From: Halomicronema sp. CCY15110
GTDB lineage: Bacteria > Cyanobacteriota > Cyanobacteriia > Phormidesmidales > Phormidesmidaceae
Assembly (NCBI RefSeq): GCF_016888165.1
Contig: NZ_JACSWC010000433.1
Location: forward strand, 1-64,000
Direction of reading: 5' to 3'
Length of the DNA stretch: 64,000 nt
Shown here: one piece after another, positions 3,302-19,121 of the stretch
How the letters are laid out: each line of letters opens with the position of its first letter
How positions within the stretch are numbered: position 1 is the stretch's first letter
Program-made: the position numbers and the translations under genes
Notes under the pieces: generated by a model
The model's database searches: none
What the model saw: the letters and a program-made list of their open reading frames with translations, nothing else
Told to the model about the DNA's origin: nothing

Positions 3302-6300
3302 TCAACTGCCGCTGATGCGGGCGATGTCGCGGGCGTTTTCTTCAAACGCTGCCGACAGGGCATCGTCGCCATCCAGCCCATCGGCCAGCGCTTTTTGAAT
3401 GTGTTGGAGCACCCGTTTGTAGTCGCGGGGCATCACCTTCACAAACTTGGGCACCATGTCGTTCCAGGCGGCGAGAACGCGATCGCCCTTCGCACTCCCG
3501 GTGTACTTCACATGGTTCTGAATCATGTCATGCAGTTCCAGAATTTCCTCCGGATCGGCCAACTGTTCCAGATCCACCATTTCGGTGTTGCAGCGGGTGG
3601 CGAAGTCCCCTGCCTCATCCAGCACATAGGCGACACCGCCGCTCATGCCCGCCGCGAAGTTGCGGCCAGTGGGGCCGATGATCACGGTTTTCCCACCCGT
3701 CATGTATTCGCAGGCGTGGTCGCCGACCCCTTCCACCACGGCCCGCACGCCGGAGTTGCGGACGCAGAAGCGCTCACCCGCCAGCCCGCGAATGTAGGCT
3801 TCGCCGCCCGTTGCACCGTAGAAGGCCACGTTGCCGGTGATGATGTTTTCCTCCGCGACAAAAGTGGAATTCTTCGGCGGATAGAGGATGATCTTGCCAC
3901 CGCTAAGCCCTTTGCCCAGGTAGTCGTTGGCGTCCCCTTCCAGCTCCATGGTCACGCCCTTGGGCACAAAGGCCGAGAAGCTTTGTCCGGCACTGCCCTG
4001 GAAGTGAAGCCGCACCGTGTCTTCCGGCAAGCCGTCCCAGTGGCGCTTGCTGATTTCGTTACCGAGAATGGTGCCGACCACCCGGTTCACGTTGGTAATG
4101 GGCAGGGTGGCGCTGACCTTTTCGCCCCGCTCGATCGCGGGTTGGCACAGATCTAACAGCGTGGTGATGTCCAGAGATTTCTCCAAACCGTGGTCTTGGG
4201 GAATCTGGCTGTAGCGCCCGACTTCCGGCCCGACTTCCGGCTGGTAGAGAATCTTCGAGACGTCAATGCCCTTGGCTTTCCAATGGTCGATCGCTTGCTT
4301 TGGCTCCAGCACATCGGTGCGGCCCACCATCTCATTAATGGTGCGGAAACCGAGTTCCGCCATGATTTCCCGCAGTTCCTGGGCAATAAAGGTCATGAAG
4401 TTGACCGTGTGCTGGGGATCGCCCGTGAAGTTCTTGCGTAACTCCGGGTTTTGGGTGGCGACGCCGACGGGGCAGGTGTTTTTGTGGCACACCCGCATCA
4501 TGATGCAGCCCAGGGAAACCAGCGGGGCGGTAGAGAAGCCGTATTCTTCGGCCCCGAGGAGAGTGGCGATCGCCACGTCCCGCCCGGTCTTCATCTGCCC
4601 GTCGGTTTCCACCGCAATGCGGCTCCGCAGGTTATTCAGCACCAGGGTTTGGTGGGTTTCCGCCAGCCCGAGTTCCCAGGGCAAGCCCGCGTGCTTGATG
4701 GAGGTTTGGGGCGATGCCCCCGTGCCGCCGTCGAACCCGGAGATCAGCACGACATCGGCGTGAGCCTTGGCGACCCCAGCGGCGACGGTGCCGACGCCGA
4801 CCTCAGACACTAGCTTGACGCTGACCCGCGCCTCGCGGTTGGCATTCTTCAGGTCGTGGATCAGTTGCGCTAGGTCTTCAATCGAGTAAATATCGTGGTG
4901 GGGCGGCGGCGAAATCAGACCCACACCGGGGGTCGAGTGGCGCACCTTGGCAATCCAGGGATACACCTTGAGGCCAGGCAGTTGACCGCCCTCGCCCGGT
5001 TTTGCGCCCTGGGCCATCTTGATTTGCAGTTCCCGCGCTTGGGACAAATAGAGGCTGGTGACGCCAAAGCGACCAGAGGCCACTTGTTTGATGGCGCTGT
5101 TCTTCGAGTCGCCCCGCTCATTCGTCCAGGTATAACGATCCGGGTCTTCGCCGCCCTCCCCGGTGTTGGACTTGCCGCCGATGCGATTCATCGCGATCGC
5201 CAGCGATTCGTGGGTTTCCTTCGAGATCGAGCCGTAGCTCATCGCCCCGGTTTTGAACCGCGACATAATCGCCTCCACGGGTTCCACTTCCTCTAGGGGA
5301 ATCGGATCGCGGGCTTTGAACTCCAGCAGGTCGCGGATTCTAAAGAACTGCTTGCCGTGGTCGTTGATTTGAGCGGAATATTTTTTGTACAGCGCGTAAT
5401 CCCCGTTGCGGGTTGCTTGCTGCAGGGTGTGAATGGTGGTCGGGCTGAAGAGGTGGGCTTCCCCATCCTTGCGCCACTGGTAGTCGCCCCCCGCATCCAG
5501 GGTTTGGTCTTTGCTGTCGCGATCAGGGAAGGCGTGACCATGACGCATCAGCGCTTCCTGGGTCAGCACCGCCAGATCGGCCCCCTCCAGCCGCGACGCC
5601 GTCCAGGAGAAGTAGGTATCAATCACGCTGGAATCCAGCCCGATCGCCTCAAAGATCTGCGCTCCGCGATAGCTCTGGATAGTCGAAATACCAATCTTTG
5701 AGCCGATTTTGATCACGCCCTTCGTCACCGCCTTGATGAAGTTCTTGCAGGCAGTGGCGTAGTCCACCCCATTCAGGACGCCCTCCTCGATCATGTTTTC
5801 AATGGTCTCGAAGGCGAGGTAGGGATTGATCGCGCCGCAGCCGTAGCCCAGCAGCACCGCAAAGTGATGCACCTCGCGGGGTTCGCCCGATTCCAGCACC
5901 AGACCCACGCGGGTACGGGTGCCGTTGCGGATCAGGTGGTGGTGCAGGCCAGCGACGGCCAACAGGGCGGGAATTGCCGCATGCTCCTTATCGATGTCGC
6001 GATCGCTCAAAATAATCAAATTGGTGCCAGCCGCGATCGCCGCATCGGCCTGCTGACAAATTTCCTCAATGGCAGCAGCCAACCCCTCCACCCCCGATTT
6101 GGGATCAAACAACATCGGCAGCGCGATCGACTGGAAGTGGCCCTCACCCCCAACCCCTCTCCCTGAAGGAGAGGGGCTTCCGGCTTCCCCTTCTCCCTGG
6201 GGAGAAGGGGATTGAGGGGATGAGGGCTGTAACGCCTTGAGCTTCGCCAACTCCGCGTTGCTAATCACCGGCGTATTGAGCTTGATCAGCCGACAGCTTT

Positions 6301-7975
6301 CCGGCTCCGGCTTGAGCAGATTGCGCTCGCTGCCAATCGTTGTAATCGGCGATGTGATGATCGCTTCCCGAATGGAGTCGATCGGCGGGTTCGTCACCTG
6401 GGCAAACAACTGCTGAAAGTAGTCGTAGAGCAGCTTCGGACGATTCGACAGCACCGCCAGCGGCGTATCGGTGCCCATCGCCCCGATCGCTTCCACCCCG
6501 TTTTGCGCCATCGGCGACAGCAGCAGGCGCAATTCCTCAAAGGTATAGCCAAAGGCCCGCTGGCGTTGAGTTAGCGGTGCATCGGGTAGGGGCGCACGGC
6601 CGTGCGCCCCTACAGGGATATCGGCCAGATTCACCAAATTTGCGTCCAACCAATCCTGGTAGGGCTGCTCGGTCGCAATGCCCTGCTTGATTTCCTCATC
6701 GGCGATGATGCGTCCCTGGCTCATATCTACCAAGAACATCCGGCCCGGTTCCAATCGCCCTTTCTTCACCACGTCTTCGGGAGCAATGGGGAGCACGCCC
6801 GCTTCTGACGCCATGATCACGCGATCGTCCGTCGTGACGTAGTAGCGCGAAGGCCGCAAGCCGTTGCGATCGAGCACTGCGCCCATGACGGTGCCGTCCG
6901 TGAACGCAATGGACGCGGGGCCATCCCACGGCTCCATCAGGCAAGAATGATATTCGTAGAACGCCTTTTTCTCCGGACTCATGGATTCGTGCCCGGCCCA
7001 GGGTTCTGGCACCATCATCATCATGGCGTGGGGTAGCGATCGCCCCGACAAGGTCAGCATTTCCAGCGTGTTGTCAAAAATCGTCGAGTCGCTGCCGTCC
7101 ACGTTGATAATCGGCTGCGCTTTCTTCAGGTCATCGCCAAACAGCGCCGACTCAAACATCGACTGGCGGGCGTGCATCCAGTTGATGTTGCCGCGCATCG
7201 TATTGATTTCGCCGTTGTGGGCGATGTAGCGGTAGGGGTGCGCCCGTTCCCAACTGGGAAACGTATTCGTACTAAAGCGCGAATGCACCAGGCCCAGCGC
7301 ACTTTCCATATCCGGGTCGCTGAGGTCGGGGTAATACTGCCCCACCTGCACCGGCATCAGTTGCCCTTTATAAACAATGGTGCGGCAGGAAATACTGGCC
7401 GGATACCAGCGCGTATTGATCCCCGGATGGCGGATCGCCATGTGCGACTGCTTGCGAATCACATACAGCTTGCGCTCAAAGGCCAGCTCATCCGCCAGAT
7501 CCGCACTGCGACCGATGAACACCTGCTCCATAAACGGTTCGCTGGCTTGCGCCGTCTTGCCCAAACTAGCGTTGTGTGTGGGTACATCGCGCCAGCCCAG
7601 CACCGTCTGCCCCGCGTCTTTTACTAAACCTTCAAAGATGCGACGGCTCTCCTGGCGAATCTGGGGATCGGGCGAGGAGTAGATCATGCCCACACCGTAT
7701 TGCCCCGGCCCCGGCAACTCCAGGCCCTCAGCCGCCGCCACCTTGTGCATAAATTTGTGGGGCAATTGCAGCAAAATGCCCGCCCCATCGCCCGTATTCG
7801 GCTCCGCGCCGACAGCTCCCCGGTGGTCAAGGTTAAGGAGTATGGTCAACGCTTGCTCAACAATGTCGTGAGACGCTTGCCCTTTCATCTGCACAACAAA
7901 CCCGACGCCGCAAGCATCATGCTCAAACTGCGGATCGTAAAGGCCTTGTTTGGAGGGCGAAGTTTGACGAATCAT
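3302..7975 (-). CDS. gltB: Glutamate synthase large (alpha) subunit
   Basis: The large GOGAT subunit converts glutamine plus 2-oxoglutarate to two glutamates. The class II amidotransferase domain opens with [14 protein letters not shown], whose cysteine is the nucleophile after propeptide removal. The central domain follows, then the FMN/3Fe-4S synthase domain ([30 protein letters not shown], and the cluster motif [17 protein letters not shown]) and a C-terminal GXGXG beta-helix. I start at the ATG giving [16 protein letters not shown], as homologues begin just before QGLYDP; an ATG 33 nt upstream is in frame. Two repeat elements are translated in frame: about 10 residues ([10 protein letters not shown]) near 455-465 and about 29 residues near 584-612. 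These lengthen loops without breaking the frame. It is first in a gltB-gltD operon. Confidence 0.97.
6141..6226. repeat. Repeat element inserted in frame inside gltB
   Basis: Outer arms ccctca/tgaggg enclose two hairpins: cccctctccc pairing approximately with ggagagggg, and ccccttctccc with ggggagaagggg. It encodes a Pro/Ser/Gly-rich stretch ([20 protein letters not shown]) in GltB. The same nested architecture is seen between gltB and gltD at 3193-3290. The reading frame continues on both sides, so the element has been accommodated as a linker. Confidence 0.8.
6586..6613. repeat. 28-bp perfect palindrome inside gltB
   Basis: gtaggggcgcacgg followed directly by its complement gives a perfect 28-bp palindrome. 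It is read as VGAHGRAPL in GltB, a peptide that is foreign to the family. The gtaggggcg arm is shared with the larger inverted repeats at 58737-58809 and 63484-63556, so it is a member of a dispersed family. Confidence 0.85.
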
Positions 7976-8601
7976 TATGGTATTGGCCTGAAAACAGCAC
8001 ATCGACAACCCACGAAACCGGCTCTGGCATTCGCAGACTGCATGGTTGGATGAAGAGCGATCGCTCTCGCGTGCTGATAATTATCTATCCAGAAAATTGA
8101 ATTTCTCACGACGCTTAAGAAAATCGTCAGATCTGGACGAGATTACTCGAATTATTTCTTATCAAACGCATGATTTGCTAACTCAAGGCGGGCCAGCAAG
8201 GCAAGAAAGCACATCCCAATCCTGCCGGTGCCACTTTCACCAGATTGGCCGGGGGAGGATTCACGCGATCCGGCCAAGGCAGCAAAGCAGTCCTGGCAAT
8301 GGGCTTTAACGCTTCAGACTATTACGAAAGTTTTGTAATACGACGCAAAGCGTCATGGCTTTTCTTGAAAACTGTAAACAAAAACCGCATTGGATGCACA
8401 ACCATAACAGTTCATCACTAAGGTCGGAACAGCGATCGCGCGGTTAGTGATAATTGTGACCAGACATCGGGCGTCGAATTTTCTACCAAGAGAGAGTGTG
8501 GCCGCTCACCGCCTATCGCCGCAGTCTAGAATATCGACACACTCATCCTCTTTCTCTGTTCCCTCGCTCGATACCGTTGCAAATATATGGAGGCCACCGT
8601 C
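7976..8601. other. Intergenic region between gltB and the small gene at 8602
   Basis: This divergent spacer of over 600 bp must hold the gltB promoter (minus) and the promoter of the small plus-strand gene. I see an AT-rich block at about 8080-8170 that could supply a gltB promoter, but no convincing NtcA site (GTA-N8-TAC) and no riboswitch fold. A 263-bp open frame at 8046-8309 has no protein-like character and I leave it out. Confidence 0.5.
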
Positions 8602-8820
8602 ATGCCACACACCCACCCGTCGCCAGAAAAGGTCTACGAAAATCTTGACAAGCTCGAAAATGCCGGGACCGCTCAAAGCGCAGAATACCGCCAGGATGCG
8701 GTTGAAGTGCTGGCGGATCTGGAGGTCGATGTCGAAGTGCGCCAAGAAATTGCCGATCGCCTCGACAACGCTAACCACCTCATGACCCTCAACAACGTCG
8801 ATGGTGAAGATAGTTATTAA
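8602..8820 (+). CDS. Small acidic conserved protein of unknown function
   Basis: A 72-residue, strongly acidic protein (MPHTHPSPEKVYENLDKLEN at the N-terminus, ending NNVDGEDSY) predicted to be almost all helix, without cysteines or membrane segments. An ATG 15 nt upstream is in frame, but the chosen ATG has a GGAGG ribosome-binding site (8589-8593) at ideal distance, which decides the start. A degenerate second copy of its last 50 codons lies at 11718-11877, showing that this is a real, once duplicated gene. A hairpin follows the stop. I do not recognise the family and assign no function. Confidence 0.75.
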   Translation: MPHTHPSPEKVYENLDKLENAGTAQSAEYRQDAVEVLADLEVDVEVRQEIADRLDNANHLMTLNNVDGEDSY

Positions 8821-8826
8821 AACCTG

Positions 8827-8854
8827 GGGGCGCTAGCCCAAAGGCCAGTGCCCC
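8827..8854 (+). terminator. Hairpin after the small acidic gene
   Basis: ggggcgctagcc (8827-8838) pairs with ggccagtgcccc (8843-8854) through G-C and two G-U pairs around a 4-nt loop, six bases after the stop codon. No U-tract follows, so it is a terminator or 3' stabiliser by position only. Confidence 0.5.
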
Positions 8855-8907
8855 CCACCTGTATGGCGCTAGAATGTGGGCCCCACGGTGCAAACGTGAG
8901 GAGTCAT

Positions 8908-9687
8908 CTACAGTGCTGTAAAAAGAATGGGGCTGGATACATGACGCTGGGGAGCATCCGCTGCTTCGACCGTCACGGCAATCGCCTTAATCCACTCGCG
9001 ATCGCGATAGACCGGGGGTAACGGAATCTGTACCGCAGGGCGACCCAGGTCATCGGCAGTTACCACCTCGGTCAAAATGGCATCTTTGTCGTCCGTGGTG
9101 AATGGTGCATTGGGTTGTAGCACCGTCCATAACGCATATACTTGGCCGACCTCTAAGGGGGGCAACTGCCCAATATCCAAGGTCGCTTGCAAACTCTCAG
9201 CGTTGATGGTGACGATCGCCGACGCGGAGGGGGTGTCGCTGGCTATGGGGGTCAGAGTCACGATAAGCGCATCCCCTGAGCCCAAAGGATTACGGGCCAT
9301 TTGCAGCGATCGCCACAGCACCACATTGCTCACCCCCAACCCGACAATGATCGCTGCGGCCACGGCCCCCCAGCCCCGCCACCGGCGGCGGGGCGACGAG
9401 CGGGGGGGCACCAACGGCACCACCGAGCCCGCCGTCGCCGGCTCAGCCACCGGCGACAATGCCTGATGCGCATTCAATACAGCCGCTCGCACTCGGTCAG
9501 GCGGCGGCACGGCTGCCGATGTATGGGCCGCCTCCAGTAGGGTTTGCAGACGTTCAATCGCTGGGGCGATCGTCGCATCTTGAGCCATCAACTGTTGCAG
9601 AGTCGCCGCCTCTTCGGGGCTTAAGTCATAAAGCACATAGCCCGCAATTAATTCTTGTAACGCTTCTGCTGATATTGACTCGGCCAT
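8908..9687 (-). CDS. RskA-like anti-sigma factor
   Basis: This 259-residue protein begins with a short anti-sigma helical domain (ELIAGYVLYDLSPEEAATLQQLM). A Pro/Arg-rich linker leads to a single membrane helix (GAVAAAIIVGLGVSNVVLW, about residues 108-127), and the C-terminal extracytoplasmic domain is of the RskA type (LPPLEVGQVYALWTVL, IKAIAVTVEAADAP). Such proteins hold an ECF sigma factor at the membrane until a signal leads to their proteolysis. It starts 18 bp after the stop of the sigma gene on the same strand, so the two are an operon and a cognate pair. The signal sensed is not evident. Confidence 0.9.
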   Translation of the reverse strand: MAESISAEALQELIAGYVLYDLSPEEAATLQQLMAQDATIAPAIERLQTLLEAAHTSAAVPPPDRVRAAVLNAHQALSPVAEPATAGSVVPLVPPRSSPRRRWRGWGAVAAAIIVGLGVSNVVLWRSLQMARNPLGSGDALIVTLTPIASDTPSASAIVTINAESLQATLDIGQLPPLEVGQVYALWTVLQPNAPFTTDDKDAILTEVVTADDLGRPAVQIPLPPVYRDREWIKAIAVTVEAADAPQRHVSSPILFTAL

Positions 9688-9705
9688 GTCCCCATCAACC
9701 CCACA

Positions 9706-10320
9706 TCATCTCTCTATGCGACCGTGTAATACTTGACGCAGCTTTAGCAAACCCCGACGTACTCTGGATTTTACAGTGCCTAACGGTAGCCCTAAGCTGC
9801 TCGAAATTGAGGCTTGCGTCAACCCCTCGTAATAAGCCATTTGCAATAGTTGCCGCTCTGGGTCTGACAACTCGGACAAGGCCGCTTGCACCACTTGATG
9901 TTGTTCCTCTTGTGACGTGATATCCACAGGCAATGCGGTGCTAGCCGCCGCTGGCTCCAGCCATGGTTCATAAATAACTTGCTGAGATTCTCGCTGGCGC
10001 GATCGCACTCGATCTAGTGCCCGCGATCGCGTCAAAATGGCTAAAAACGTTCTCAGAGAACCTCTTTGCGGATCATAAGACGAGCGATATGCCAACTTGA
10101 TGAAAATATCTTGGGTCAAGTCTTCCGCTTCTTGAGCATTGCCCAACACCTTGAGAGCAATGCCATACACTAACCCCGCATGGCGATCGTAAAGTTGGCC
10201 GAGCGCTGCCGTTTGCCCTTGCTTACTGGCTAACCACAGTTCTGCATCCGTTAGGGCAGTTCCCTCCGCCTCACTCACTCGCTCGGAATCCATCGCCCCT
10301 GGCAATACCGCAACCGTCAC
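9706..10320 (-). CDS. ECF-type sigma-70 family RNA polymerase sigma factor
   Basis: A 204-residue sigma factor with region 2 (LYDRHAGLVYGIALKVLGNAQEAEDLTQDIF, residues about 43-75) and region 4 with its helix-turn-helix (YYEGLTQASISSSLGLPLGTVKSRVRRGL), and no sigma 1 or sigma 3 domains. This is the ECF layout, which redirects RNA polymerase to a small regulon. The start is GTG (cac at 10318-10320). An in-frame ATG nine codons on (MDSERVSEAEG) is an equally possible start. The anti-sigma gene follows at once. The CHRD protein gene lies upstream on the same strand, behind two hairpins, and may be part of the regulon. Confidence 0.93.
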   Translation of the reverse strand: MTVAVLPGAMDSERVSEAEGTALTDAELWLASKQGQTAALGQLYDRHAGLVYGIALKVLGNAQEAEDLTQDIFIKLAYRSSYDPQRGSLRTFLAILTRSRALDRVRSRQRESQQVIYEPWLEPAAASTALPVDITSQEEQHQVVQAALSELSDPERQLLQMAYYEGLTQASISSSLGLPLGTVKSRVRRGLLKLRQVLHGRIER

Positions 10321-10548
10321 GATTTATCCTATCGCTTAGCGTTATCTTCATTCCGGTAGTTTGGGTACAGATTGAGAAGGCGCAATCCGCCGTGCAGTCC
10401 TCATTGATATCGATGCTGCGCAATAGCGCTACAGATTGAGGATCTGCCGCTGTCACCGCCCCCTTGCCATCAGGGGGCTTTGCCAAATCTGGATGTGTAG
10501 TCCAATCGTAGTCCAATCACCGAGAATTGGGATTACCCCTTGGGTAAC

Positions 10549-10605
10549 GATTACCGAGACAGGCGATCGATATCTCGGTAATCGCCCGGTCTGGTTGACA
10601 GACCG
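10549..10605 (-). terminator. Two consecutive hairpins between the CHRD gene and the sigma gene
   Basis: The first is a perfect 11-bp inverted repeat (gattaccgaga at 10549-10559 with tctcggtaatc at 10573-10583, 13-nt loop). The second is a perfect 7-bp repeat (10587-10593 with 10599-10605, 5-nt loop). Both lie within 75 bp after the CHRD stop codon and about 230 bp before the sigma-factor start. They could terminate or attenuate CHRD transcription, or be operators for the sigma-gene promoter. The loop of the first contains gcgatcg. Confidence 0.55.
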
Positions 10606-10623
10606 ACATCGCTACCAACGCCC

Positions 10624-11259
10624 TTAATAAGGCATCAAAATACCGCGCAACTCACCACCCCGATTCATCGTGGTATGGATATCTGAGTAGAGTTGGCCAC
10701 TCTCCAACGCGGTGATTTGCTCAGCAGTGAGGGTGTATTCGCCTTGGGCATCGCCCCGACCAGCCCCCGTCATGGCCACATCCAGCGCATATTGAAAGGG
10801 GCCATTGCCGGTCGAGTCGCCTTGGTGAATGTGGAAGGCTGACGTAATGTTGGCATTGGGCGGATTCACCGGATCGGTGGCGTAATCGCGCATCGGACTC
10901 GACAGGCTGCTAAAGCTCCCGCGCACGACCAAGCGATCGCCCACCAAGACTGCCCCGACAGCACCCCGAGCATTGGCGTCTGGAGCATTGGGCACGACAT
11001 TTTTAGCACTCAAGACAGCGCCATACATCACCATCGAGGGGCTGGAAATTCCTTGGGCCAGCAAATCAGACTCCAGGGCAGCAAGGTCCGCATCTAACAT
11101 GCTGCCTGACGAAAATTGGACATCGGTAGTCGCCTGCCGCCACTGCGCTGGCACCATGGTTGACAGGTAACTAAAGGCCGGTGCCGTTAAGGTCACCAGC
11201 AAAAAACAGGTCCAAGCTGCCAAGAGAAAATGGCGTACTCGTTTTTGAGAATTCATCAT
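10624..11259 (-). CDS. Exported CHRD domain protein
   Basis: The 211-residue product starts with a basic tip and a hydrophobic signal or anchor segment (FLLAAWTCFLLVTLTAPAFSYL, residues about 11-32). It continues with a CHRD domain from about residue 75 to the end: SAKNVVPNAPDANARGAV, LVVRGSFSSLSSPM, AFHIHQGDSTGNGPFQYALDV and the closing LYSDIHTTMNRGGELRGIL. CHRD domains are beta-rich and found in secreted bacterial proteins and in animal chordin; their bacterial role is unknown. The gene stands upstream of the ECF sigma / anti-sigma pair on the same strand. CHRD and fasciclin-type proteins often accompany RskA-regulated sigma factors, so it may be a target or signal partner (inference). Confidence 0.88.
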   Translation of the reverse strand: MMNSQKRVRHFLLAAWTCFLLVTLTAPAFSYLSTMVPAQWRQATTDVQFSSGSMLDADLAALESDLLAQGISSPSMVMYGAVLSAKNVVPNAPDANARGAVGAVLVGDRLVVRGSFSSLSSPMRDYATDPVNPPNANITSAFHIHQGDSTGNGPFQYALDVAMTGAGRGDAQGEYTLTAEQITALESGQLYSDIHTTMNRGGELRGILMPY

Positions 11260-11561
11260 GATTACGTCAATTAGGGAATAACAATGAGCAAGCTCATAGG
11301 AGCTTGTTCACTGTTAGTACGCGGGTCATCCCAATTTGGATGCAGACTAGGTGATGGATTGTCCCTGGCCAGGTCAGAATGCAGGCAGCACCAGTCTCCT
11401 ATGCCGTTGGTTTTGACTTCCGATCGCGAGGCCATGCTGGGGGGGCGAGTTGAGCGGCGGCGGCCTAGTGTGTCGCTTCTAGATCGTGGTCGCGGCGGTC
11501 ATCAGCCCGGCTCAGCTCAGATCGGGAGGGCGATCGCGGTAGTCAGAGTTGGGGATAAACC
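11260..11561. other. Spacer without a supported gene
   Basis: The promoter of the CHRD gene should lie at the left end. One 100-codon open frame on the plus strand (11284-11586) is rich in Arg and Gly, lacks a ribosome-binding site and resembles nothing I know, so it is left out. The right end passes into the copy of the dxr leader. Confidence 0.5.
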
Positions 11562-11713
11562 CCAGAAAATTGTCAATTGCGAATGACCTGCCCTCTGGTA
11601 ACACCGTGAAAGCGATTACTTTGCTCAGCTTCACTGGTTCCATTGGCACGCCAACTCTGAACATTTTGGAATCTCACCCCGAAGATTTTCGCCTAGTGGG
11701 GATCACCGCTGGC
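11562..11713 (+). pseudogene. Truncated second copy of the dxr leader and first 36 codons
   Basis: These 152 bp align without a gap to 15633-15784, the leader and start of the intact dxr gene, with about 25 differences by hand count (about 84% identity). The copy begins at a GTG (11606) and would encode [20 protein letters not shown] and on to GITAG before a TGA at 11714. Most differences within the codons are at third positions, so this looks like a diverged homologue and not a fresh duplication. Similarity ends abruptly at the stop, where a fragment of another gene begins. The remainder of dxr is missing, so the fragment cannot be functional. Confidence 0.88.
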
Positions 11714-11717
11714 TGAG

Positions 11718-11877
11718 ACCATTCACAATACCGAATATCGGCAAGATGCAGTGTGAGGGGCGAGCTGATTTGGGTGTAGATATTGAAACCCGGTAGGCGA
11801 TCGCCTCGACAACGCTAACCACCGCATGACCCTCAACAACGTCGATGGTGAAGATCGATGGTGAAGATAGCTATTAA
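11718..11877 (+). pseudogene. Degenerate copy of the 3' half of the small acidic gene (8602-8820)
   Basis: The first codons give TIHNTEYRQDAV against TAQSAEYRQDAV in the intact gene. After a decayed middle, 11800-11860 is almost identical to the end of that gene (the stretch encoding LDNANHLMTLNNVDGED, with H-R for H-L). The copy has an internal stop, and a 13-bp tandem duplication of cgatggtgaagat shifts the frame near the end. It is joined directly to the dxr fragment before it. It is a relic of a paralogue. Confidence 0.85.
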
Positions 11878-12009
11878 ACAATCCTTAAGCCTTAAGCGTG
11901 CTTGCGACTTTGCTCGTCATATGACGACAATCGGCATCAGCTTTAATCCATTTCAAAGTTGATCCCGATTGCGATCAAGGAAGGATTCCGGTGGCGCTAG
12001 TCCCCGGTC

Positions 12010-12309
12010 TTAGCGAGTTGCCGACAGTTGTGGTTTTGGGGGCTCTAGCTTGATGCTGATATCCTGCTCTGCCTGACTGAGGTCGTTTGCTCGTGCCAAC
12101 AAAGACGCTTCGGTCGGGAGTTGCAGCCGCGAGGCCCAAGATATTCGTTCTAGCATCTGAATAAACAGAAACGTCGGGTCAGGAAGATAAGCGACTGTGC
12201 CGTTCCGTAAGGTAATGCCGTGGCGACTGGAATGAGCGATCGCATGGTGTAGATTGTGCCAACCTTCGCCCAGGGTGAGCACTGCAACCCATCGCGACAG
12301 CGACAACAA
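12010..12309 (-). pseudogene. C-terminal remnant of a DesC-type acyl-lipid desaturase
   Basis: The open frame gives SRWVAVLTLGEGWHNLHHAIAHSSRHG near its start. GEGWHNxHH with a following RHG is the third histidine box of delta-9 (DesC-like) acyl-CoA/acyl-lipid desaturases. The first two histidine boxes and the membrane helices are absent, because a stop codon lies three codons upstream of the remnant's first TTG. About 95 C-terminal residues are left, the last 45 being tail. It points away from the intact desaturase at 14349 and belongs to a different subfamily. It is a broken gene inside the rearranged zone. Confidence 0.82.
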
Positions 12310-12338
12310 TGATTAGCGACCCGCGAGGATTTGGAAGG

Positions 12339-12396
12339 TCTAAATCGAAGCCTTACTCTCAGAAATACACCCCGACCTTTTCATCTCAAGCTCCTT
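12339..12396. repeat. 58-bp direct repeat, copy 1 (upstream of the methyltransferase)
   Basis: An ungapped 58-bp match to 14233-14290, about 74% identical by hand count and differing mostly by transitions. It lies 302 bp before the methyltransferase start, and copy 2 lies 58 bp before the desaturase start. Both strands can be translated without a stop for part of it (plus: TLRNTPR vs TLRNIPR; minus: ISES followed by a stop in both copies). It may be a shared regulatory element or two copies of a dead gene end; I cannot decide. Confidence 0.6.
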
Positions 12397-12697
12397 CGCA
12401 GATCAACATTGTCAGCATTCTTTTCTCGCCACAGGATAATTATTCGATTTGTAAACTTTAATAAATCTATGTTTTTTCAGCATTTTTTGGTAAATACAAA
12501 AAAATTATGGTCATAAGATTGAATGAAGCTTTGATGGGTTTCTCTATATGAGAGGGGCTCGTCTAGCTGATATTTAAAATTTAGTTTGAATCAAGACCTT
12601 TCGGAGTATTGAGCCTTCTGGGGAATGGTGGGGTTGCCATGTTCAAAATAATGACAGGTGTCTTGCTCTGGATTGAAATAAAATTTGGGAAAATAAG
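12397..12697. other. AT-rich leader region of the methyltransferase
   Basis: About 300 bp with no supported gene. It is much richer in A and T than the rest of the window (for example the stretch 12470-12520) and should contain the promoter. No strong Shine-Dalgarno sequence precedes the ATG at 12698. Open frames at 12331-12516 and 12609-12797 lack protein-like features. Confidence 0.5.
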
Positions 12698-13966
12698 ATG
12701 TCTCTATTCCTACAATATCCACAAGAGAGAAGTCTCCCGTCGATCAAGCCTGATTCAACTAGCCAATTATTGTTGGATCAAAACATTCATCTCCTGACAG
12801 AACAGGAGGCAGCAAGGGGGGCGCAACCTTGGGATATTATTTGCCAAACAGGTCAGGTACAACATGTCCTAAATCAATTTAAGCGATTTAAGACTCTTGG
12901 GCTAGGTAATACTTATGCTCAAGCGTTATGGCGCTGCGATCGTATTGATTTACTGTCTAAGCGCCTGTTTGCCCTTAACTTTGATAAACCAGCCAACTCA
13001 ATTTTATTTGAGATGCCTAATTCTTTCCAGTTGTTGCTAGAGCAGTTTTTATACAAGGTCTTCAATATTTCCTTGATCCGCCAAAGAGATGTTGCCAAAA
13101 ACCACTATGACCTGCCCACTGAGTTGTATGAGGGATTCCTAGGGGAAACCATGAAATACACCACTGGAGATTGGACTAGCCTGGAGCCAATCTCCGCAAA
13201 TCTTTCAGCAGCTCAGTTTCAAAATCTTGATTACTGGTTCAACGAACTGCAAATTAAAGATGGCGATGTGATTCTAGATTGTGGCTGTGGTTGGGGTACT
13301 CTACCTGATTATTTGAAGCATCGGGCTGATGTCACTTACATTGGCATCACGATTTCTGATGTGCAAATTGGCTATTGCCGCTCTAAGTTTAAAGGCTTAG
13401 ACAAATACTATTTCTATAATCATAGTTACCATGATCGCTACCCGGAATTGCTCTCTCAAGTGGGTGTCGACCAAATTACTAAGTGTATTTTCCTGGAAAC
13501 AATAGAACATGGCGGCGTTCGTAATTGGCCCCACATTCTCAAGCACGTTCGTGAGGTGCTCTCACCTCAAGGTCTGCTAGGCATTCAAACGATTGGCGCG
13601 GAACATCCCAACCTAGTTTGTGATCCTTACATTAACCGCTACATTTTTCAACATCTCTCGATCGGCTCACCGTCAGAGTTGGGTCAAGCGATTGAAAGAA
13701 ATCGCCAGTTTGTGAAGTTAAAAGAGCACAACATTGGTCATCATTACCCGGCTACTCTGCGTGCCTGGAATGACCTCTTCCAAAGAAATTGGACTAAGAT
13801 TCAACCCCACATTCAGCATATTTTAGATACGACTCCTTTTGATAATGTCGAAGCGTGGAAGCGTCATTGGGAATTTTATCTGCTTCTCTGCGTGGGAGCC
13901 TTTGAAGCTGGTACTTACCCCCAGGTTTATCAGCTCACGGCCAAACCCAACTTTTTCTTCAAGTAG
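12698..13966 (+). CDS. CFA-synthase-like SAM-dependent methyltransferase
   Basis: This 422-residue protein resembles cyclopropane-fatty-acyl-phospholipid synthases and mycolic-acid methyltransferases. Residues about 130-160 carry the NHYDLPTELYEGFLG and MKYTTGDW motif of that family. The SAM site is DCGCGWGTL near residue 194, followed by GITISDVQIGYC. A later IETIEHGG/LLGIQTIG segment and the typical C-terminal WEFYLLLCVGAFEAG complete the fold. Family members add a methylene or methyl group to the double bond of an acyl chain on a lipid. Downstream on the same strand, 382 bp on, is a fatty-acid desaturase, so the two may act on one lipid in turn (inference). The gene is AT-richer than its surroundings and free of HIP1 sites, suggesting transfer. 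Confidence 0.9.
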   Translation: MSLFLQYPQERSLPSIKPDSTSQLLLDQNIHLLTEQEAARGAQPWDIICQTGQVQHVLNQFKRFKTLGLGNTYAQALWRCDRIDLLSKRLFALNFDKPANSILFEMPNSFQLLLEQFLYKVFNISLIRQRDVAKNHYDLPTELYEGFLGETMKYTTGDWTSLEPISANLSAAQFQNLDYWFNELQIKDGDVILDCGCGWGTLPDYLKHRADVTYIGITISDVQIGYCRSKFKGLDKYYFYNHSYHDRYPELLSQVGVDQITKCIFLETIEHGGVRNWPHILKHVREVLSPQGLLGIQTIGAEHPNLVCDPYINRYIFQHLSIGSPSELGQAIERNRQFVKLKEHNIGHHYPATLRAWNDLFQRNWTKIQPHIQHILDTTPFDNVEAWKRHWEFYLLLCVGAFEAGTYPQVYQLTAKPNFFFK

Positions 13967-14348
13967 AGGCAGCAGACTAATACCGCAGATAACCTATGTC
14001 TGCCAATATGTCTGCCAATGTCTTAGAGTATGACAGAGTTTTTGCATGGCAATTGAAGTAAGTGCAATGGTCTCGACATCATCACCCTGAGCATTCATGT
14101 TCACCACCTTTGCACAATCCTTAACACGTTGTGGGATAGTCGTGGCTCGGTGTAACTCTCGTCAGGTGCGGTCTTTTCCTCAGGAGTGAGAACACATGCA
14201 ATCGCATTCCCATCAGTTGCCCTCGCTGCCGATCTAAATCAAAGTTGTACTCTCCGAAATATACCTCGACTTTCTTACCCCAAACCACTTGGCATATGTT
14301 TTTCGGTCAGAATCCAGGCTATATTATTTCTACCTATTTTTGTGACCA
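13967..14348. other. Spacer between methyltransferase and desaturase
   Basis: The 382-bp gap holds two tandem copies of the 12-mer atgtctgccaat (13996-14019) just after the methyltransferase, and copy 2 of the 58-bp repeat near its right end. No gene is supported; the 79-codon frame at 14186-14425 overlaps the desaturase start and looks spurious. The size of the gap implies that the desaturase has its own promoter. Confidence 0.5.
14233..14290. repeat. 58-bp direct repeat, copy 2 (upstream of the desaturase)
   Basis: Partner of 12339-12396, about 74% identical over 58 positions without gaps, both copies starting tctaaatc. It ends 58 bp before the desaturase ATG, at a promoter-like distance. 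Confidence 0.6.
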
Positions 14349-15491
14349 ATGAATTTAAAAAGTCAAATCGACTATATCTCACAGCCAGAGTATGCCAAAA
14401 AACTTCGGCCTCTGATGCCACCTGAGGCTTTCCAGCCCAACTCGAACAACGTGCTTATTTTATTGATCAACGGTCTGATCTTGATCTGTGGATGGGGCAT
14501 CGCGAGTCGCCTTGACCAATGGGATTGGCGCTTGTGGTGGCTGTTTTTGCCGTTCTCATTAATTATGGGAAACAGCATTGTTGTTTCTTTGTTTTGTACC
14601 CATGATATCCTGCACAGCAAAGTCATTAGAAATGCTAGATTACGGCAACTCCTTGGCCTTCTAGGACTAACTATGCTGTGGACGCCGCCGACTTTTTGGA
14701 AGGCTGTCCATAACCGCGAGCATCATAACAAAAGTAATTCTCTACATGATCCTGATAGAAACTATCTATCCAGCCATCCTCAGAATTGGGGTAAGCGCAT
14801 CCAGGATCTTTTCGTCCCTTCCAACGAAGTAAATCCTTTGTGGCTCATCATTGGGATGGCCAATGCTTGGGGTGTTCACACCTTTCGCAATCTCAGTTCA
14901 GTCCTCTTGTTTAACAACGGTGAAGCCCAATATCCGGTGGTATCTTTCCGCGTGAGCGCCAAAGAGCGGCGAGCCATCGCACTTGAGTTGGCGATGATGG
15001 CGTTGCTGCATGTCGGCATTTTATCCTACTTGGGATGGCATCCGATAAAATTGATTTTGAGCTATTTTTTGCCGATTTGGATTGGATATTCGGGTGCTTT
15101 GTTTTACATATATACAAATCACATGGCCTGCCGCATGACCCCGGTCAACGATCCCCTAATCAATAGCATTTCCCTGCGTGTACCCAAAATATTTGATGTG
15201 CTTCATCTGAATTTTTCTTATCATACAGAGCACCACATTTTTCCAGGAATGAATTCAGACTACTATCCTGTTTTGCAGCAGCTTTTATTAACTCATTATC
15301 CTGAGCGATTTAATTTACTGTCGGCGCAGGAGGCGTGGAAGATACTGTTAACCACACCTCGGCATTATCTGGATGAAAATACGTTCACCACTTGGTCTGA
15401 AGAATATTCAGTAACGTGCCCGTTGTCCTCACGGGCACCGTCGGTTAGCAACGGCGACATCGAGACTAGTCCTCAGACTTTAACACTTTAG
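14349..15491 (+). CDS. Membrane fatty-acid desaturase family protein
   Basis: A 380-residue di-iron desaturase (FA_desaturase superfamily). Its three histidine boxes are HDILH (about residues 84-88), HNREHH (121-126) and HTEHH followed by IFP (about 291-295). Hydrophobic segments include LILLINGLILICGWGIA near 35 and LWWLFLPFSLIMGNSIVVSLF just before box 1. Enzymes of this class bind two irons and put a double bond or hydroxyl on an acyl or related chain, taking electrons from ferredoxin in cyanobacteria. It is not close to the standard DesA/B/C/D types as far as I can judge, so the substrate is open. It shares low GC and a 58-bp upstream repeat with the methyltransferase before it. Confidence 0.9.
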   Translation: MNLKSQIDYISQPEYAKKLRPLMPPEAFQPNSNNVLILLINGLILICGWGIASRLDQWDWRLWWLFLPFSLIMGNSIVVSLFCTHDILHSKVIRNARLRQLLGLLGLTMLWTPPTFWKAVHNREHHNKSNSLHDPDRNYLSSHPQNWGKRIQDLFVPSNEVNPLWLIIGMANAWGVHTFRNLSSVLLFNNGEAQYPVVSFRVSAKERRAIALELAMMALLHVGILSYLGWHPIKLILSYFLPIWIGYSGALFYIYTNHMACRMTPVNDPLINSISLRVPKIFDVLHLNFSYHTEHHIFPGMNSDYYPVLQQLLLTHYPERFNLLSAQEAWKILLTTPRHYLDENTFTTWSEEYSVTCPLSSRAPSVSNGDIETSPQTLTL

Positions 15492-15632
15492 GAAATCGTG
15501 AGATTGCTTGCAGTTTTCTGGGGCAAGTCACGCACCATTTTTATTAGTCAGGCTAGGCAAAAAGTTGGTTGCACTCCGAATAAATCGCCTGCTCGAGTTT
15601 CGAGTAGCCGATCTAAAAGTTCGGTTCAGAGT

Positions 15633-15784
15633 CCAGGAAATTGTAAATTGGAGATGACCTGCACTCTGGTAACACTGTGAAAGCGATTACTCTGCTCGGC
15701 TCCACCGGCTCCATTGGCACGCAAACCCTAGATATTTTGGAATCACATCCTGAAGACTTTCGCTTAGTGGGGATTGCGGCTGGC
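15633..15784 (+). repeat. Right copy of the 152-bp direct repeat (start of intact dxr)
   Basis: The leader and first 36 codons of dxr, matched without gaps by 11562-11713. The two copies bracket the low-GC lipid island about 3.9 kb apart. Because the upstream 44 non-coding bases are as well conserved as the coding part, the duplicated unit included the dxr promoter or leader. Confidence 0.85.
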
Positions 15785-16861
15785 AACAATGTGGAGCTGC
15801 TAGTCCAGCAGGTGCGCCAGTTCAAACCTGAGATAGTCGCCATCTGCAACGAAAGCAAGCTGGATGACCTCAAAACAGCGATCGCTGATCTCGATCCTCA
15901 GCCGATTATTCTGGCTGGGGATGACGGCGTGGTGGAGGTGGCGCGGTACGGGGACGCAGAAGCTGTGATCACGGGAATTGTCGGCTGTGCCGGATTGCTG
16001 CCGACGCTGGCGGCGATCGAGGCGGGAAAAGACATCGCCCTGGCGAATAAAGAAACCTTGATTGCTGGCGGCCCTGTCGTGCTCCCCCTGGTGGAAAAGC
16101 ATGGTGTCAAGCTGTTGCCTGCGGACTCGGAACATTCCGCCATCTTCCAGTGTTTGCAGGGGGTGCCCGATCGCGGTCTGCGACGCATTATCCTGACTGC
16201 TTCGGGCGGCGCGTTCCGGGATTGGCCGGTGGAAAAGCTGCCCCAAGTCACCGTGTCCGATGCGCTGAAACATCCCAACTGGAGCATGGGCCGCAAGATT
16301 ACCGTGGACTCTGCCACGTTGATGAATAAAGGGCTGGAGGTGATCGAAGCGCACTATCTCTTCGGCCAAGACTATAACGACATCGACATCGTCATCCATC
16401 CCCAGAGCATCATTCATTCTCTGATCGAATTGCAAGACACCTCGGTGCTGGCCCAATTGGGTTGGCCGGATATGCGGCTGCCGCTGCTGTACGCCATTTC
16501 CTGGCCCGATCGCGTTTACACCGATTGGGAACCGCTGGATTTGGTCAAAGCGGGCACTCTCACCTTCCGGGAACCCGACCACACTAAGTATCCCTGTATG
16601 GATTTGGCTTACGCGGCGGGACGCGCGGGCGGCACCATGACCGCAGTGCTCAACGCGGCCAACGAACAGGCGGTGGAGCTGTTCTTGGATGAACAGATTG
16701 GCTATTTGGACATTGCCAAGGTGATTGAGCGGGTGTGCGATCGCCATCGCGATGATCTGGTGGCCCAGCCCGTTTTGTCAGATATTTTGACCGTCGATCA
16801 GTGGGCGCGTCGCGAAGCTGTGGCCGCCAGCAAAAATCTCACGTCTCCCGTGATGGCCTGA
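15677..16861 (+). CDS. dxr: 1-deoxy-D-xylulose 5-phosphate reductoisomerase
   Basis: DXR converts DXP to 2-C-methyl-D-erythritol 4-phosphate with NADPH, the first committed step of the MEP isoprenoid pathway. The 394-residue protein starts at GTG with [21 protein letters not shown], the NADPH-binding motif. It then has [12 protein letters not shown], the substrate and metal-site segments [17 protein letters not shown] and LTASGGAF, and [29 protein letters not shown] in the catalytic domain. A small membrane-protein gene follows after 15 bp. A truncated copy of its leader and first codons lies 4 kb upstream, which marks this gene's 5' end as an integration or rearrangement point. Confidence 0.97.
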
Positions 16862-16876
16862 ATTTAGGATTACTCG

Positions 16877-17083
16877 ATGGAAATCGCGATCGTTATCGGC
16901 ATCTTAATCATTCTGTTTCTCGTGACGACTTGGGTGCTTAAAGTCGTGCGGGCGACGCTGAGGCTCGCAATTCTAATCGCGATCGGGTTGCTGGCACTGT
17001 TGATCGTGGGCATTGGCCCCCAAACCATCTGGGAGCAGTTGCAAAACTGGCTGCCGGGTTTCGAGCCCGCCAATCCGCCGTGA
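16877..17083 (+). CDS. Small membrane protein of unknown function
   Basis: A 68-residue protein made of two hydrophobic helices: IAIVIGILIILFLVTTWVL, then a short basic turn KVVRATLR, then LAILIAIGLLALLIVGIG. A polar tail ends NWLPGFEPANPP. It lies 15 bp after dxr on the same strand and is probably cotranscribed. I recognise no family; small two-helix proteins of this kind are common in cyanobacteria. HIP1-like sequence within the gene agrees with it being native. Confidence 0.65.
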   Translation: MEIAIVIGILIILFLVTTWVLKVVRATLRLAILIAIGLLALLIVGIGPQTIWEQLQNWLPGFEPANPP

Positions 17084-17176
17084 AGGTTTGACCAAGACTC
17101 GGGACGCACTCGACATCAAGTTATCGGTTTCTGTTCGCCACTGACTCAGCCACCCACCCGATAACTCAGCCACTGG

Positions 17177-17210
17177 CTACAAGTAGGAGCTTAATTTACC
17201 CGTCAAGCTC

Positions 17211-17220
<10 letters not shown>
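17177..17220 (-). terminator. Inverted repeat at the end of sdhA
   Basis: Arms of 16 bp with one mismatch (ctacaagtaggagctt at 17177-17192, 17205-17220) and a 12-nt loop. The right arm contains the sdhA stop codon. No U-run follows, so it is a terminator or mRNA 3' protector by position. Confidence 0.55.

Positions 17221-19121
<1,901 letters not shown>

Follow-up and report, generated by a model that had tools for sequence, protein, structure and literature searches.

Organisation of the locus

The window examined is a 64,000-nucleotide stretch of DNA from the cyanobacterium Halomicronema sp. CCY15110 (contig NZ_JACSWC010000433.1). Within it lie two intact open reading frames, referred to here as MT1 and DES. 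Both are on the plus strand, 382 bp apart, and each is present once in the genome. Coordinates of these genes, and of the features around them, are given in Table 1. A preliminary description of this DNA had placed the two genes at the same positions and on the same strand, and our check of the open reading frames agrees. The enzyme classes proposed there were confirmed by Pfam: MT1 belongs to the CMAS family (139.5 bits, cut-off 27; E = 1.7e-40) and DES to the FA_desaturase family (PF00487; 84 bits, cut-off 29.7; E = 1.7e-23). The low GC content remarked upon previously is also evident; values are 44-47% across 12 to 16 kb versus mostly 51-63% in the window. Scans for promoters and terminators gave a result no better than chance.

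Table 1. Features of the MT1-DES region (positions refer to the window).
Feature	Position	Strand	Description
Decayed dxr duplicate	11547..11713	+	Duplicate of dxr 5' end
C12 relic	12034..12292	-	C-terminal relic of C12 (DesC-like desaturase); intact beside dxr in G001
Low-GC segment	12290..15617	.	Carries MT1 and DES; replaces 5' half of C12; ends approximate
65-bp repeat, copy 1	12339..12403	+	Upstream of MT1
MT1	12698..13966	+	CFA-synthase-family (CMAS) SAM-dependent methyltransferase, 422 aa
65-bp repeat, copy 2	14233..14297	+	Upstream of DES
DES	14349..15491	+	Membrane acyl desaturase, 380 aa, three histidine boxes
dxr	15677..16861	+	Intact; right border of the probably acquired segment

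The 5' end of dxr is duplicated, together with the 60 bp upstream, so that copies occur at 11547-11713 and 15618-15784. The left copy has decayed; it contains a premature stop and an altered NADPH motif. In a relative from the same genus (G001) an intact C12 gene is found directly upstream of dxr, and neither MT1 nor DES was detected in that genome at the thresholds used. The low-GC segment was probably acquired horizontally, by insertion into the C12-dxr interval, breaking the native C12. Given the arrangement in G001, we rejected the idea that C12 arrived in the window together with MT1.

The preliminary description also reported a 58-bp repeat upstream of both genes and counted it among the signs that the two enzymes may act on one lipid. 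A repeat does precede each gene, but its measured length is 65 bp. The two copies are identical at 48 of 65 positions, with an alignment score of 31 versus 15 or less in 200 shuffles. Their distances to the start of the following gene are 295 bp (MT1) and 52 bp (DES). There is no third copy in the genome, and we therefore rejected a genome-wide element. Comparison with the fetched loci by tblastx, which would detect conserved coding sequence, gave no match. Because the spacing is unequal and no other copy exists, we draw no functional conclusion from the repeat, and it is not supported as evidence of co-regulation. A distinct and near-perfect 58-bp intergenic repeat (57/58 identical) occurs outside the pair, at 8754-8811 and 11798-11855; the preliminary description may have referred to either one. 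A sequence resembling this 58-bp repeat adjoins C12 in G001 (locus L144, about 7316-7512).

Sequence features of MT1 and DES

The best match to MT1 in the PDB is the E. coli cyclopropane fatty acid (CFA) synthase 6bqc (E = 5.5e-40). The alignment begins inside the N-terminal lipid-binding domain. Against the NCBIfam equivalog model for CFA synthase MT1 scores 215.8 bits, which is below the cut-off of 400. The SAM-binding motif, DCGCGWGT, is invariant across MT1. A plasmid search with MT1 returned only ordinary cfa genes, of less than 60% identity. An AlphaFold model of MT1, built from nine sequences, had a pLDDT of 48, too low for it to be of use.

In the CFA synthase reaction the olefin attacks the methyl group of SAM, and bicarbonate then takes a proton, closing the ring (PMC11387697). 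The bicarbonate is held by Glu239, His266 and Tyr317 (PMC11387697). Glu239 and Tyr317 are retained in MT1, as is Ile268, and His266 is replaced by Gln in all nine sequences. The position of Cys139 is occupied by Thr or Ser, also in 9/9. In the window MT1 the two altered positions are T156 and Q297. The second family of CFA-like enzymes described below, MT2, has Met at position 139, and part of the family carries Cys at 239. We infer that deprotonation is altered in MT1, judging from these residues, and the product need not be a plain cyclopropane. With the H266 ligand missing, and the nearby C139 changed, a methyl- or methylene-branched chain would be somewhat likelier than a ring. Loss of a bicarbonate ligand is not a known signature of methylene-forming enzymes, since those of the BfaB type were selected for a conserved bicarbonate site (PMC7791843).

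The histidine boxes of DES are HDILH (H85/H89), HNREHH (H121/H125/H126) and HTEHH (H292/H295/H296). None of these eight histidines varies among 42 relatives. Of the NCBIfam models, DES matches that of the Bacillus Delta10 desaturase DesB (NF052549) best, at 177 bits for a cut-off of 500. Searching PDB sequences with DES produced no match.

DES recurs beside CFA-like methyltransferase genes

Relatives of MT1 occur in a few cyanobacteria and share 64-73% identity. Within the order, 8 of 65 genomes have one, and a sample of 385 other cyanobacterial genomes lacks MT1 altogether. Of 386 genomes sampled for DES, 36 members of the class carry it, as do six genomes from further afield. The genes are also neighbours in an uncultured Leptolyngbya (L038), where DES is downstream of MT1 and both order and strand are as in the window. 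This exact pair is seen in two genomes only, one of which is represented by a 3.9-kb contig of a metagenome-assembled genome (MAG). Gene calls in all fetched loci are plain open reading frame calls. At two further MT1 loci (L156 and L157, from G424 and G425) the contig stops within about 250 bp of the MT1 end.

MT2 proteins are 27-32% identical to MT1. At five loci (L050, L057, L063, L066 and L067) MT2 adjoins DES or lies within about 2.5 kb of it. These neighbourhoods occur in three clades other than those with MT1-DES, and in the DES tree the methyltransferase-adjacent proteins, with those of L038 and the window included, are spread over five separate positions. DES was found in 16 of 26 genomes with MT2 versus 26 of 360 without (386 genomes; Fisher p = 5e-11, with kinship ignored). 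The 16 genomes carrying both families span seven genera, and the probability of observing five adjacencies among them by chance is near 3e-11 in a simple distance model, or near 2e-7 when counted by clade. The preliminary description had suggested a search for co-occurrence across genomes, and held that a lack of conserved adjacency elsewhere would count against a shared pathway. Co-occurrence is seen for DES and MT2, and adjacency is seen both in L038 and at the MT2-DES loci. In the majority of MT1 carriers, however, DES is not close by, and the majority of DES genes lack a methyltransferase gene next to them.

The desaturase C12 also accompanies both methyltransferase families. It adjoins MT1 in L033 and L034, adjoins MT2 in L120, L122 and L124, and is about 4 kb from MT2 in L127. 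Furthermore, L040 and L132 represent one locus, marked by genes for a P-type ATPase (71-73% identical) and a membrane protein (72%). This locus contains MT1 in L040 and MT2 in L132. The two families may thus be interchangeable, as far as this shared position indicates. In L132 (6776-8923) a FAD protein of the geranylgeranyl-reductase (GG-reductase) family is encoded 19 bp downstream of MT2, an arrangement seen beside MT2 in L132 only. This protein could act as the reductase of a methylene intermediate.

Two other gene arrangements were observed. Two species of the genus g58 share a MerA-like FAD oxidoreductase (87% identical), whose gene adjoins DES in one species (L049) and MT2 in the other (L126). 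A Streptomyces virginiae plasmid (L153; NZ_CP108150.1, 3395-6092) carries a desaturase gene, a gene for an F420H2-quinone-reductase-family protein and cfa, with open reading frames that overlap by 4 bp; the run is an apparent operon. The desaturase is a distant relative of DES, and the Cfa protein retains every bicarbonate ligand.

In some genomes MT1 or DES occurs near genes for hydrocarbon synthesis

According to the literature, no cyanobacterial genome holds both hydrocarbon pathways (PMC3903477, PMC6361979). An olefin-synthase match was found in six of the nine MT1 genomes versus 17 of the 142 strains that Coates et al. surveyed (PMC3903477; p = 4e-4). Leptolyngbya sp. PCC 6406 (L036) is one carrier of both MT1 and an olefin synthase, and the survey text reports no hydrocarbon profile for it. 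The remaining three MT1 genomes, that of the window among them, carry ADO next to an AAR-like gene. In the window's genome the ADO match (2.1e-122) is on contig G000:C278 and the AAR-like gene is beside it.

Direct linkage is evident at several loci. MT1 is one gene away from the olefin synthase in L040. In L116 (G396 contig C98, MAG CRU_2_2) genes for ADO, FAAL, ACP, olefin synthase, MT1 and DUF6208 are co-directional, and the olefin synthase has the domain order KS-AT-KR-ACP-ST-TE. In L055 DES lies in the interval from ado to aar; in L052 it is one gene away from ado. The ADO of L116, which is clustered with the olefin synthase and MT1 (4622-17760), is 47% identical to that of the window's genome and scores above the TIGR04059 cut-off. 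No AAR gene was seen adjoining ADO in L116, which derives from a MAG.

For 7- and 8-methylheptadecane, the methyl group comes from SAM and the likely precursor is vaccenic acid (Coates et al., PMC3903477). The same survey, published in 2014, stated that the methyltransferase was yet to be identified (PMC3903477), and we found no later identification in the literature searched. A search combining olefin synthase, cyclopropane and desaturase also returned no paper. We considered MT1 as the general methylheptadecane enzyme and rejected this; a gene so rare, and missing from the 385 other sampled genomes, cannot have that role.

Discussion

The recurrent adjacency of DES and CFA-like methyltransferase genes leads us to conclude that MT1 and DES probably serve the same acyl pathway. 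The preliminary description had proposed that both enzymes may act on one lipid. Adjacency with two methyltransferase families favours that proposal; the shared repeat, on which it also drew, is not supported as evidence of co-regulation. We propose that DES would introduce a cis double bond into an acyl chain. MT1 would then transfer the methyl carbon of SAM to a double bond in the same chain, by the cation mechanism of CFA synthase. The product would be a methyl- or methylene-branched (or cyclopropyl) chain, and a separate reductase may be needed. Such a chain would be open to the AAR and ADO enzymes of the window's genome, which would yield a methyl-branched alkane similar to 7- or 8-methylheptadecane. 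Order of action, product and fate are all inferred for MT1-DES.

Our main reading is of an MT1-DES module whose product goes at least partly to hydrocarbons, and we give it a probability of roughly 0.45. Whether the module feeds hydrocarbons is close to evenly balanced, tilting slightly towards the negative. A role of this type is plausible, and makes MT1 and DES candidates rather than a demonstration. Strains with an olefin synthase, where measured, produce alkenes only, and branched alkanes are confined to FAAR/ADO strains (PMC3903477). The strains measured by Coates et al. comprise 7 producers of branched alkanes and 25 others. The alkene-only profile speaks against methylated hydrocarbons in those MT1 carriers that have an olefin synthase, unless other strains differ.

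The pair might instead tune membrane lipids only, altering glycolipid or phospholipid chains to cyclopropane or methyl-branched forms, with no link to hydrocarbons. E. coli-type CFA synthases have an N-terminal lipid-binding domain and use membrane phospholipids as substrate (PMC11387697), the MT1 match begins inside that domain, and most loci with DES or MT2 have no hydrocarbon gene nearby. The olefin-synthase and ado/aar neighbourhoods speak against this explanation, as do the changes, in 9/9 MT1 sequences, of two residues usual in cyclopropane-forming active sites. On balance we consider membrane tuning a serious but unlikely alternative. MT1 and DES could also modify a chain on a FAAL/PKS line, as for cyclopropyl or branched lipopeptides and polyketides. 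FAAL and PKS genes adjoin MT1 in L116 and L040, and in L128 a FAAL gene lies some 5 kb away from MT2. However, the adjoining PKSs show the complete domain series of an olefin synthase, ST and TE included, the window has no FAAL/PKS line of this sort, and none was matched in its genome. Tailoring of a specialised metabolite is accordingly the least probable of the explanations that we weighed.

A last alternative is that MT1 and DES are unrelated and were joined by chance in an acquired, rearranged segment. The site is rearranged, with a C12 pseudogene and a dxr duplicate, the intergenic gap is 382 bp, and the exact pair has been seen in two genomes only. Against this, DES has partners from two dissimilar CFA-like families, in clades that are separate, and the five adjacencies in 16 genomes with DES and MT2 would rarely arise by chance. 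We set chance adjacency aside as the best reading because the pairing is repeated, and regard it as improbable.

A broader version of the hydrocarbon reading would make MT1 and MT2 the SAM methyltransferases of cyanobacterial mid-chain-branched hydrocarbons, with the double bond supplied by a dedicated desaturase, either DES or C12. This is a tentative proposal that we think will more probably fail than hold. If true, MT1 carriers with an olefin synthase would make a methyl-branched terminal alkene, a product so far unreported. Among the lipid signatures of cyanobacteria, mid-chain methyl-branched alkanes rank with the more specific ones, and they have been reported from sediments as old as the Middle Proterozoic (PMC5642901). 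A candidate at the level of genes would make the question of the methyltransferase directly testable. It would also allow producers to be predicted from genomes and provide a tool for branched fuels.

The closest known system to MT1 is bacterial cyclopropane fatty acid synthase (Cfa/CFAS; E. coli 6bqc and Aquifex 7qos). MT1 differs in having Gln at H266 and Thr or Ser at C139 (9/9), and in its equivalog score of 216 bits versus 400. The BfaB/BfaA and TmpB/TmpA systems, which make 10-methyl fatty acids in actinobacteria and other organisms (PMC7791843, PMC5660069), similarly combine a CFA-like methyltransferase with a redox partner, as in the pairing of MT2 with a GG-reductase-family FAD protein in L132. 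Conversely, MT1 of the window is partnered by a membrane desaturase and has no adjoining FAD gene in the manner of a BfaAB operon, and its bicarbonate site is changed. DES resembles Bacillus DesB in being a membrane desaturase with three histidine boxes, but falls far under the equivalog cut-off and forms a patchy cyanobacterial family of its own. Finally, whereas the descriptions consulted of the AAR/ADO and olefin-synthase pathways (PMC3903477) name no methyltransferase or dedicated desaturase, MT1 or DES adjoins genes of these pathways in L116, L040, L052 and L055.
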